Part shown: positions 30,232-49,083 of the stretch, in pieces
How positions within the stretch are numbered: the stretch's first letter is position 1
Layout of the letters: every line of letters starts with the position of its first letter
Source: Candidatus Roseilinea mizusawaensis
GTDB lineage: Bacteria; Chloroflexota; Anaerolineae; J036; Brachytrichaceae
Direction: 5' to 3'
Assembly (NCBI GenBank): GCA_016841965.1
Contig: JAEANN010000024.1
Location: forward strand, 62,001-126,000
Length of the DNA stretch: 64,000 nucleotides
Program-made: the position numbers and the translations under genes
Notes under the pieces: generated by a model
Database searches by the model: none
The model's input: only the letters and a program-made list of their open reading frames with translations
What the model was told of the DNA's origin: nothing

Positions 30232-30570
30232 TCAGTATTGTTCGAGTCGTTCCATGTTGAGCACGAACACGGTGGCGCCGCCAATCTCCACTTCGGTTTC
30301 TTGGCCGGTCGTCATGGTTGTCTGGCCCAGCGGCATGGACAAATGAATCGGCACAGGCATGAGTACTTTGCGACGCTGCGCCGTGCGTTTGAGAATGGAT
30401 AGTGCGCGCGGTATGTATGCGTCTTCTACGCCGAGCAGCAGTGTCACGTTCTTCTGGCGCAGCCAACCGCCCTCGGTCGAGATGCGCGTCACACGCAGGC
30501 CGGCCTCCACTAATGCGTCGCTGATACCGGCGGCGTCTTCTGCTTGCACAATGACCATGACGAGCTTCAT
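30232..30570 (-). CDS. PII-like cyclic-di-AMP receptor family protein (DarA/PstA type)
   Basis: 112 residues. KLVMVIVQAEDAAGISDALV, GLRVTRISTEGGWLRQKNVT and LLLGVEDAYIP match the DUF970/cyclic-di-AMP receptor family, a trimeric PII-like protein that binds c-di-AMP through the RISTEGG region. The C-terminal half (EVEIGGATVFVLNMERLEQY) is the conserved last strand. AGGAGAGG lies 10 bases before the ATG. It follows the HTH-Kelch gene by 59 bases, so the two are probably co-transcribed. No diadenylate cyclase gene is in the window. Confidence 0.88.
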   Translation of the reverse strand: MKLVMVIVQAEDAAGISDALVEAGLRVTRISTEGGWLRQKNVTLLLGVEDAYIPRALSILKRTAQRRKVLMPVPIHLSMPLGQTTMTTGQETEVEIGGATVFVLNMERLEQY

Positions 30571-30629
30571 GTTAAGCCTCTCCTGAACAAATTGAGCGTG
30601 TCTTGGCGCTGTATAGTGCGCCCCAGCGT

Positions 30630-32201
30630 TCATGGCTTGCCCCCAGGCGCCTGGAACGCCGGCAGGAACGTGCGGTTGGTGAAAACTTCGTACACGTAGG
30701 TGAACGCCAGCCGGCGGCCATTGCTGTATCCGCCGATGGCGTAAAACTCGGTGGGTTGTGCCGCAACGGCGACACCGCGCCAGTCGCCGATCAATGGCGT
30801 CTCGATGGATGTCCAACGGTTGTTTTGTGGATCGTAGCGTTCGTTGAACCCGACAAAGCCGGCCCACCCGCCGCCCACTGCGTACACGCTATTGCCGACA
30901 CGCGCAACGCCTGGCGCGCCCCGTGCGATTTGCATAGGGGCGCAAGTATCCCAGGCATCGCGCGCCGGCCAGTACACCTCGCAGGTGGCGAACTCGCGGC
31001 CTTCGTCGTACCCGCCGATGACGTAGATCCTGTCGTCGAACGCGACGGCCCCGCTGAGGCTGCGCGGCGTGGGCATTGGCGCGATGGGGCGCCATGTGTC
31101 GCCGGCGATATCGTATGCGAAGCTATCGACGGTGCCAGGATTGCTTGACTTATCTCCGAACACATACAGTTTGCCGTTGAGAGCGGCCATGCTGTGGCCG
31201 GTCATCGGGATGGGCAATGGTTTCAGGGATCGCCACACATTGGCGGCGGTATCGAACACTTCCAGTTTGTTTGTTGCGATGCCCTTGGCGGTTGTGCCGC
31301 CGGCCACATAGATCAACTGACCCACCGCGGCTGCCGCGCTGTTCCAGGCCGGGGTGGGTTTGGGCGCATCTAGTGGCGTCCAGGTGTTATTGCGGGGGTC
31401 GAACACCAGCACATCGCCCGATGCAGTTTGATTGGTCTCGCCGCCGATTAGATACACCAGGCCGCCCACGGAAGCGGCTGCGCTGCGCGCGCGCGCAGCC
31501 GGCAGCGCGTCGCGCAGGTGCCAGCGGGTAGCTTCGCCCGGGGCCAGCAAGTCACCGGTGAACGTGTTGGCGTCGATCAGATCGGTGCCGTCGTCGCCAG
31601 GGCCGCCGGCGTTGCGTCCCAGCGCCGGCAGCGATGCAAGGCTGCCCAGCACGATAAACAGCACCGTGGCGACAACCAGCACGCGCCGCCACATTGGCAG
31701 AGCCGGCAATGGCTGAGGATTTGGCGCAACCGGCACCGGAACCGTTGCGCGCCCAACGGCCTGCACGCTTTGTGCAGTAGCCGGCGCTGCAGCGGCCGGC
31801 GCCTCGGCGGGGGGGGCTGCGGGTTGTGCAGGCTGGCTCTGTGCCGCCAAGTCGGTAATCTCGACCGCTGTTGTGGTTGGCGCGCTCTGAGAAGCCGCAT
31901 CGCCCGGCTTTGCCTGCGTCGGCCCAGTGGCCGGCTCACCCGCCGGTTCGCCCGCCGGCGCATTTGCCGCCAGCTCACCCGCCGGCACAACCCAACCGTT
32001 GCGCACGGCGATCATGGTCACTTCTACGCGCGATTGCGCTTGGAGCTTGGTGAAGATATTGCGCAGATGCACCTTCACCGTATTGGGGCTGAGGTAAAGC
32101 TGCGCTGCGATCTCCTTGTTGCCCGCGCCAGTCGATAGCAGCCGAACGACTTCAAGCTCGCGTTCGGTCAGGGGTTCACCCGCTTCTGCCATGCGAGGCA
32201 T
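30630..32201 (-). CDS. Membrane-tethered LuxR-HTH protein with extracellular Kelch propeller
   Basis: 523 residues in an unusual order. Residues 10-70 are a LuxR/GerE helix-turn-helix (LTERELEVVRLLSTGAGNKE, then LSPNTVKVHLRNIFTKLQA). Residues 72-168 are a Pro/Ala-rich linker with repeats of PAGE. Residues 171-194 form one membrane helix (RRVLVVATVLFIVLGSLASL). The rest is a Kelch beta-propeller of about six blades, with Gly-Gly pairs at 253, 301, 397, 443 and 490 each followed or preceded by aromatic-rich strands (LYVFGD, IYVIGGYDE, FYAIGGYSNG). The DNA-binding part should be cytoplasmic and the propeller outside. There is no receiver domain, so it looks like a one-component transmembrane regulator. 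Confidence 0.85.
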   Translation of the reverse strand: MPRMAEAGEPLTERELEVVRLLSTGAGNKEIAAQLYLSPNTVKVHLRNIFTKLQAQSRVEVTMIAVRNGWVVPAGELAANAPAGEPAGEPATGPTQAKPGDAASQSAPTTTAVEITDLAAQSQPAQPAAPPAEAPAAAAPATAQSVQAVGRATVPVPVAPNPQPLPALPMWRRVLVVATVLFIVLGSLASLPALGRNAGGPGDDGTDLIDANTFTGDLLAPGEATRWHLRDALPAARARSAAASVGGLVYLIGGETNQTASGDVLVFDPRNNTWTPLDAPKPTPAWNSAAAAVGQLIYVAGGTTAKGIATNKLEVFDTAANVWRSLKPLPIPMTGHSMAALNGKLYVFGDKSSNPGTVDSFAYDIAGDTWRPIAPMPTPRSLSGAVAFDDRIYVIGGYDEGREFATCEVYWPARDAWDTCAPMQIARGAPGVARVGNSVYAVGGGWAGFVGFNERYDPQNNRWTSIETPLIGDWRGVAVAAQPTEFYAIGGYSNGRRLAFTYVYEVFTNRTFLPAFQAPGGKP

Positions 32202-32229
32202 TATATCGAGCGCGCATATCGATCGCGCT

Positions 32230-33330
32230 CTACAAGTTGTCGCAAGCCTCTTCTTGTGGCCGGTTGTCTATTACGCAGGTAAAAGAAGTTGGCGAGACTT
32301 CAATGCGCACGTCGGGGCGCAATGCGACGACGCCGTTACACGCATCGCTGTTCAGCACGTCGCGCGCCTCGTCGATGGCTGCCAGCTTGAGATTGGTGAG
32401 ATTGCCACGCAGGTTGTGAATGGCGCGCCGCAGGGTGGTGCGTTGCAGGCCCGCCGGCAGCTTTTGCCATGCCCGGCGGTCGAACGTTAATCGATTGTTG
32501 CCGGGCAGGTTCATGTTGCGCATGAGCACTTCTGCAAGCGCCTGTTGGGCGGCGTAGTCGATCACCTCGGCGTCGGTGGCGGCGGTGTCGGCCAGGCGCG
32601 CCAGCACAGCGCGAATGCCGGGGTTGTATTGTTCCAGCAGGGGCAGTAACTCGCGCCGGATGCGATTGCGCAGATAGTCTGCGCGGTTATTGCTCTCGTC
32701 GAAGCGCGGTTGAAGCTGTCGCGCGGTGCAGTATGCCAACACTTCGGCCCGCGTTACCTGCAGCAACGGGCGGATCAGATACAGCCCAGGTGCGAATGGG
32801 TGGCGACTGAGTGGCTGCATGCCGCGCAGGCCGGTGATGCCGGCGCCGCGAATCAGGCGCAATAGCACTGTCTCAGCCTGATCGTCGGCCTGATGGGCCA
32901 CAGCAATCAAGGATGCGCCGAATGCCTGCGCAGTGCGCGCCAGGAAGTCGTAGCGGGCGCGCCGCGCGGCGACCTCGATCGAGGTGCGGGTCGCAGATGC
33001 GAGGCCGGCTACATCGGCCTGCTCATGGTAGAAGGGCGCCCCGCGCGCGCCGGCGAATGCGCGGGTGAACTCGGCGTCGGCGTGGCCGGCTTCGCCGCGC
33101 AAGCTGTGGTCCAGGTGGGCAATCGCCGGCGTCAAGCCCAGTGCGCCGGCCTGCACCAGAATGGCATCGGCCAGACACAGCGAATCTGGACCGCCCGAGA
33201 CAGCTAGCACGATGGGGGCAGGATGGCGGTGAAAACAGGTCGGCGCTGCAGGATGGGTGCGGGCATCATGGAAGGCGCGTTGCACTCGCAGCCACACCCG
33301 CTGGCGGATGGCATCACTTGCGCCGGCCAT
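32230..33330 (-). CDS. tilS: tRNA(Ile)-lysidine synthase
   Basis: 366 residues. The N-type ATP pyrophosphatase loop is VLAVSGGPDSLCLADA, followed by HLDHSLRGEAGHADAEF and AVAHQADDQAETVLLRLIRGAG, all TilS signatures. TilS converts cytidine 34 of the CAU-anticodon isoleucine tRNA to lysidine and is essential in most bacteria. The C-terminal substrate-binding domain is present but short. It lies 28 bases before the HTH-Kelch gene and 6 bases after a small conserved gene. Confidence 0.93.
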   Translation of the reverse strand: MAGASDAIRQRVWLRVQRAFHDARTHPAAPTCFHRHPAPIVLAVSGGPDSLCLADAILVQAGALGLTPAIAHLDHSLRGEAGHADAEFTRAFAGARGAPFYHEQADVAGLASATRTSIEVAARRARYDFLARTAQAFGASLIAVAHQADDQAETVLLRLIRGAGITGLRGMQPLSRHPFAPGLYLIRPLLQVTRAEVLAYCTARQLQPRFDESNNRADYLRNRIRRELLPLLEQYNPGIRAVLARLADTAATDAEVIDYAAQQALAEVLMRNMNLPGNNRLTFDRRAWQKLPAGLQRTTLRRAIHNLRGNLTNLKLAAIDEARDVLNSDACNGVVALRPDVRIEVSPTSFTCVIDNRPQEEACDNL

Positions 33331-33336
33331 GCTTGC

Positions 33337-33708
33337 TCATAGCGCTTGCATGTCGCCGGCCACGTACACCCTGACGGGCACGCCTTCGATCTCATCCGGG
33401 ATGCCGTCTTCGGCGCTATCTGGGTTGGCATTCGGGTCAAGCGCCACTGCCTTCCGCACACCGATCATCAACACGGGGCAGCGCGCGGTCTCCTGGTCGG
33501 CTGTAGTAGGGCTGGGATGTGGTGCGGTGGATAACTCGGCCGATGAGCCGGCGGGTGGCGCGACCGGAGCCAGGCCGATCCCTACGCTGATGACATTGGC
33601 TTTGCGGAGTAGCGCAGCTTCATGCCGGGTCTTCACCTGGCGCACATAGTCGAGGTTCAACCTAATTCTGGCGGCAGATTGGCGTTCAATTCGAGCAGGC
33701 TGCTTCAT
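33337..33708 (-). CDS. Conserved protein of unknown function, orphan domain
   Basis: 123 residues. After a basic N-terminus the segments LLRKANVISVGIGL, VLMIGVRKAVAL and DEIEGVPVRVYVAGDM recall the N-terminal module found in front of some trypsin-like or uncharacterised proteins, where the pattern is V-x-G-V-G-x-K ... V-x-V-x-x-K ... I-x-G-V-P-V-x-V-x-x-x-G. Here it stands alone without a protease domain. No catalytic residues are evident. It starts the string that leads into tilS (6-base gap). Confidence 0.6.
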   Translation of the reverse strand: MKQPARIERQSAARIRLNLDYVRQVKTRHEAALLRKANVISVGIGLAPVAPPAGSSAELSTAPHPSPTTADQETARCPVLMIGVRKAVALDPNANPDSAEDGIPDEIEGVPVRVYVAGDMQAL

Positions 33709-49010: not shown

Positions 49011-49083
49011 GCTGCCTTAGCTCAATCGGCAGAGCAATCGCTTCGTAAGTGATAGGTTTCGGGTTCAACTCCCGAAGGCAGCT
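49011..49083 (+). tRNA. tRNA-Thr(CGT)
   Basis: 73 bases: acceptor GCTGCCT (49011-49017) with AGGCAGC (49076-49082), anticodon stem ATCGC/GTGAT, loop TTCGTAA with anticodon CGT at 49044-49046, T-arm TCGGG/CCCGA with TTCAACT. It reads ACG threonine codons. CCA is not encoded. Confidence 0.95.

Follow-up and report, generated by a model that had tools for sequence, protein, structure and literature searches.

Transmembrane transcription regulators constitute an established class, of which more than 50,000 members are reported in the main text of one survey (PMC10269533). In the ToxR, TcpP and CadC type described there, a single chain runs from an N-terminal cytoplasmic DNA-binding domain through one membrane helix to a C-terminal external domain, and neither a kinase nor a receiver domain is involved. 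The same main text mentions Chloroflexota solely for hybrid regulators and contains no mention of LuxR, GerE, Kelch or propeller; a protein such as the one described here may be counted, unnamed, in its supplementary tables. This protein, encoded within a 64,000-nucleotide stretch of DNA from Candidatus Roseilinea mizusawaensis (here termed the window), resembles the ToxR/TcpP/CadC type in each of these respects, but differs from it in possessing a GerE-type HTH rather than an OmpR-type winged helix, in the use of a Kelch propeller as the external domain and in its occurrence as one conserved copy per Chloroflexota genome. The Pfam scan returned GerE and no Trans_reg_C (PF00486) match, and, because the HTH type differs, the protein is not regarded as a member of the ToxR/CadC family proper. 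With the LuxR/NarL/FixJ regulators it shares a PF00196 HTH with invariant signature residues; unlike these, its HTH is N-terminal and membrane anchored, and Pfam and NCBIfam scans detected no receiver, kinase or autoinducer domain in it, the NCBIfam equivalogs of such regulators scoring far below their cut-offs. Since both the position of the HTH and its partner domains differ, the protein is neither a LuxR quorum regulator nor a classical NarL-FixJ protein.

The longest open reading frame of the regulator gene (positions 30630 to 32201, complementary strand) comprises 523 codons, and the interval from 30232 to 32201 spans this gene together with the receptor gene that follows it (Table 1). 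In the alignment of relatives the orthologues begin at MAE, the corresponding codon of the regulator being located at 32192, and a TATAAT hexamer is present 7 bases ahead of this ATG. The true start is therefore probably 32192 and not 32201, which would yield a predicted protein of 520 residues. The reading frame was present as described in the initial annotation, whose account of a single protein made up of an HTH, a linker rich in Pro and Ala, one membrane helix and a Kelch propeller of about six blades was borne out by Pfam, hydropathy and AlphaFold2 analyses; the intergenic distances that it gave were likewise correct, the receptor gene beginning 59 bases beyond the regulator and the end of tilS lying 28 bases from the start of the longest reading frame (32201).

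Table 1. Coordinates of the regulator gene, its predicted domains and adjacent features in the window
Feature	Position	Strand	Remarks
HTH-TM-Kelch regulator gene	30630..32192	(-)	520 aa from likely MAE start
LuxR-type (GerE) HTH	32007..32174	(-)	Residues 10-65 of 523-aa ORF; PF00196
Pro/Ala-rich linker	31695..31991	(-)	Residues 71-169; predicted disordered; length variable
Single membrane helix	31626..31694	(-)	Residues about 170-192; Arg-Arg toward HTH side
Six-bladed Kelch propeller	30687..31526	(-)	Residues 226-505; N-terminal strand near Trp227 closes sixth blade
Cys407 + Cys420 pair	30942..30983	(-)	Neighbouring strands of blade 4; facing positions
TATAAT, putative -10 box of leaderless promoter	32200..32205	(-)	7 bases before ATG 32192
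Inverted repeat GAGCGCG-N9-CGCGCTC	32208..32230	(-)	Perfect; in tilS-regulator gap, directly before -10-like box
tilS (tRNA-Ile lysidine synthetase)	32230..33330	(-)	TIGR02432, E 7e-50
DarA/PstA-type PII-like protein (CdAMP_rec)	30232..30570	(-)	PF06153; 59 bases after regulator stop

Assignment of the N-terminal domain to the LuxR-type (GerE) HTH superfamily is based on a PF00196 match at residues 10 to 65 (E = 5.6e-20; 71.2 bits against a cut-off of 23.5) and on the retention of its signature residues, of which R14, E15, G25, N28, T41, V42, H45, K52 and R58 are invariant among 27 aligned relatives, T41, V42 and H45 being situated in the recognition helix. AlphaFold2 confidently predicted a four-helix HTH at residues 13 to 67. 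Across 110 loci the HTH is the best-conserved part of the regulator: within the family its identity to the window protein is 0.82, against 0.53 for the Kelch region, and across the class the two values are 0.59 and 0.37. These identities and the invariant key residues indicate strong constraint on DNA binding. The linker that follows it was modelled with low pLDDT and retains an identity of 0.27 within the family; its length differs among relatives, many other families possessing a much shorter one.

The C-terminal half of the regulator was matched by Kelch_1 over five stretches (162.7 bits), and the AlphaFold2 model, generated from an alignment of the 27 relatives (mean pLDDT, 80.9), contains six four-stranded blades with an equivalent Trp in each (residues 227, 274, 323, 370, 417 and 463); most of the linker, and the segment beyond the membrane helix, are unordered in it. 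The repeated motifs and the closed propeller of the model identify the domain as a Kelch propeller, and Foldseek matched it to designed SAKe propellers, NS1-BP and Keap1, with TM-scores by target length of mostly 0.8 to 0.89. Its six blades, GG pairs, single Trp per blade and loop-face Arg residues are shared with Keap1- and NanM-type propellers, from which it differs in being fused to an HTH and a membrane helix. Identity with the NanM/YjhT mutarotases was rejected, as the two models matched in part and far below their cut-offs (53 of 416 and 52.5 of 256 bits, with a best stretch of approximately 120 residues). On one face of the propeller the DA and BC loops are better conserved than the AB and CD loops, and the conserved basic residues R237, K281, R380, R427 and R475 are located in DA loops. 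In Keap1, the Arg-bearing loop face binds peptide. Because this conservation is in part that of the generic Kelch motif, a face which binds an acidic partner is a guess. The protein ends, at about 30645 to 30675 of the window, in an aromatic/aliphatic-[LIV]-Pro tail that is found in 102 of the 110 relatives. Many secreted Chloroflexota proteins end in such a tail; as a mark of secretion it was discarded, a small comparison with other predicted secreted proteins being nonsignificant.

Hydropathy analysis identified exactly one membrane helix, at residues 174 to 192, which corresponds to an isolated helix at residues 170 to 189 of the AlphaFold2 model. Each of the 110 relatives has such a helix, with scores that average 2.40 and nowhere fall below 1.63. 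Among these relatives the net charge is +1.2 before the helix and -0.5 after it, and in 85 the preceding segment is the more positive. Cys407 and Cys420, which the model places in strands 407 to 411 and 416 to 419 of blade 4, are both present in 56 relatives and both absent from 45, with one alone in 9, a co-occurrence whose statistic is inflated by shared ancestry and which may also be seen for facing cysteines that co-vary in cytoplasmic proteins; this co-occurrence and the facing strands of the predicted structure make a Cys407-Cys420 disulfide probable. The charge bias, the helix in all relatives and the cysteine pair are each weak lines which, taken together, favor an N-in/C-out topology, with the HTH inside and the Kelch propeller outside, and thus lend indirect support to the extracellular position initially suggested for the propeller.

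The regulator was found in 38 of 40 relatives, one copy being cut by a contig end, and the two genomes without it are 70% and 82% complete. Those relatives that bear a name are uncultured Anaerolineae and Thermoflexales, Candidatus Roseilinea among them. When a profile built from 27 sequences was applied to 180 Anaerolineae genomes, 143 matched at E 1e-40, mostly with one full-length match each, and the additional matches corresponded mainly to Kelch-only portions of other proteins. Full-length matches were also obtained in families of other Chloroflexota classes (f33, f34, f44, f70 and f73). Within the Anaerolineae, none of the listed genomes of family f18 gave a match in a search that scored no more than a few first-look candidates from each genome; the regulator is likely absent from this family and, if so, dispensable there. 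A search of plasmids returned only partial matches within the Kelch range, none of which covered more than 80% of the query. The HTH, one helix and the Kelch propeller occur in that order on a single chain at 109 of the 110 loci, the remaining locus being cut by a contig end, a proportion which describes the family, as the loci were picked by profile match, and not the frequency of separate parts; close relatives with the two domains on separate proteins, named at the outset as an observation that would speak against the architecture, did not emerge. All relatives examined combine a DNA-binding domain and a membrane region in one chain, as transmembrane transcription regulators do. The architecture is thus no isolated case, and no characterised relative appeared in the literature searched, which also held nothing relevant on a LuxR-Kelch pairing; within that literature, the early statement that no characterised regulator joins these two domains stands.

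In most genomes of the window's family the regulator is preceded by tilS, while in other families the upstream genes encode RibF, a PfkB sugar kinase, an EamA transporter, an HIBADH-like enzyme, a PMT-type glycosyltransferase or other products. As the upstream partner varies by family and a promoter-like element precedes the regulator, an operon with tilS was rejected as a clue to its meaning, and tilS probably does not share its function. In the family, 19 of 23 members carry an exact TATAAT 5 to 11 nt ahead of the regulator start, and 22 do so when one-off variants are included; at these loci the background is 27 among 9099 ATGs and 6 among 150 other genes. This conserved position and the lack of a Shine-Dalgarno match before the regulator in the family members listed fit a leaderless transcript read from the gene's own promoter; a consensus scan yielded no full sigma-70 promoter, and a -10-like box alone is claimed. 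The inverted repeat adjoining this box could serve as an operator or else form a hairpin at the 3' end of tilS. A conserved operator was rejected, since no common sequence was apparent by eye upstream of the regulator in two other species (G001 and G002). Beside tilS, a 123-residue reading frame (33337 to 33708, complementary strand) without a Pfam match resembles, by eye, the N-terminal part of a trypsin-like protein at another locus (L062:8705-9709), which adjoins a receptor pair and has a weak NAL1_N match. The sole Rfam match of the window is a tRNA gene (49011 to 49083, forward strand).

It is proposed that the gene encodes a single-pass transmembrane transcription regulator in which the external Kelch propeller acts as a ligand-binding sensor, a reading which we consider likely. 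The N-terminal LuxR-type HTH would be cytoplasmic and flexibly tethered by the Pro/Ala linker, with the membrane helix anchoring the protein and the propeller positioned outside. The conserved loop face of the propeller would bind a ligand, be it a peptide, a surface polymer or another envelope protein, and ligand binding would cause two chains to pair or to change orientation, such that two HTH domains meet on their DNA target. Such pairing is modelled on proposals for ToxR/CadC-type proteins. It speaks against the proposal that the regulator lacks a constant genomic neighbor by which a process could be named.

A different reading takes its lead from the gene that follows. Its product is a member of the CdAMP_rec family (PF06153; 93.2 bits against a cut-off of 27); with the NCBIfam DarA equivalog it scores 97.5, short of the cut-off of 140. 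Of the residues which line the c-di-AMP pocket of DarA/PstA, namely, R26, T28, GGFL, N41 and G47 (PMC4475381), it keeps equivalents of Arg26, Thr28, Gly35, Leu37, Asn41 and Gly47, and the small protein, as distinct from the regulator, may well bind c-di-AMP. It thus resembles DarA/PstA in most pocket residues but differs in its longer loop region, in the Trp that replaces Phe36 and in being a divergent paralogue, one of three in its genome (the others being C34:255667-255984 and C36:6045-6332). Related genomes mostly hold one to four such paralogues, with tandem pairs in families f8 and f10, and receptor multiplication in the Anaerolineae looks common and unexplained. The external sensing linked to second-messenger signaling that was initially suggested would correspond to a two-gene module in which the DarA-like protein couples the c-di-AMP level to the membrane regulator. 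Such a module draws support from pocket residues that are mostly kept, from a diadenylate cyclase domain in 37 of 40 genomes, that of the window included, and from the adjacency of the two genes in 3 of 3 genomes of the genus, in each of which a Shine-Dalgarno-like site (AGGAGAGG in the window) lies ahead of the receptor ATG; with this site present in all three species, the two genes may share the regulator's transcript in the genus. In two distantly related genomes of family f10 (of seven), two tandem receptor genes are also present 0.5 to 1.6 kb downstream of the regulator. However, a cofC-like gene separates these from the regulator, and a -10-like TACAAT belongs to the receptor itself. In the receptor tree, the copies linked in one lineage are not sister to those of the other, and the copy in the window's genome that scores best against the receptor family is located on another contig, C34. 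Within neighborhoods of about 6 kb at most on each side, and less at contig ends, a receptor gene was found near the regulator at 5 of 110 loci, all from these two lineages. The tabulation proposed at the outset has therefore largely gone against a general link between regulator and receptor: on the neighborhood counts and the receptor tree, a c-di-AMP circuit was rejected as what the regulator generally serves, and a two-gene module is very unlikely. The receptor is regarded as a local neighbor, at most co-expressed with the regulator in this genus, and a lone gene neighbor is poor ground for inferring a second-messenger circuit.

The remaining alternatives concern the manner in which the protein itself may act. 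Cleavage within the membrane or close to it, once the propeller has bound or has been stripped, could free the HTH and linker to act as a soluble regulator; proteolytic release is known for other membrane-bound regulators, and the long, unordered linker of variable length would suit it. The much shorter linker of many families indicates, however, that a long one is not essential, and neither a protease gene nor a cleavage motif is linked to the regulator, which leaves regulated release unlikely. The commonest neighbor of the regulator, a convergent XerC/D-like tyrosine recombinase gene close downstream at 20 loci from many Anaerolineae families (for example, L055:6288-7226), might suggest chromosome handling, and hence a protein whose HTH merely holds DNA, or is a relic, while the propeller works outside as, for instance, a surface adhesin. 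The recombinase gene is on the opposite strand and is missing beside the regulator in the window, and an HTH that is the best-conserved part of the protein, with invariant recognition-helix residues, is unlike a relic; we regard this proposal as very improbable indeed. Finally, as the topology is a predicted one, the propeller could be cytoplasmic and the helix a mere membrane anchor or a false call, but the helix scores of all relatives, the charge bias and the cysteine pair render this extremely improbable.

The regulator is thus uncharacterised; its probable mode of action belongs with that of the transmembrane transcription regulators, with sensing by the propeller as an attractive model. 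In the fullest form of the proposal, which we judge to be evenly balanced between holding and failing, a single-copy Chloroflexota regulator would take its signal through the external Kelch propeller and directly drive the LuxR-type HTH, an undescribed pairing that would possibly control the cell surface in most Anaerolineae and in Chloroflexia. The known repertoire of membrane-anchored regulators would thereby gain a combination in which a LuxR-type HTH and a Kelch propeller work together. Signal transduction in the Chloroflexota has been little studied, and a one-copy regulator that most Anaerolineae retain, and that is also found in further classes of the phylum, gives direct access to the question of how these bacteria perceive their environment.
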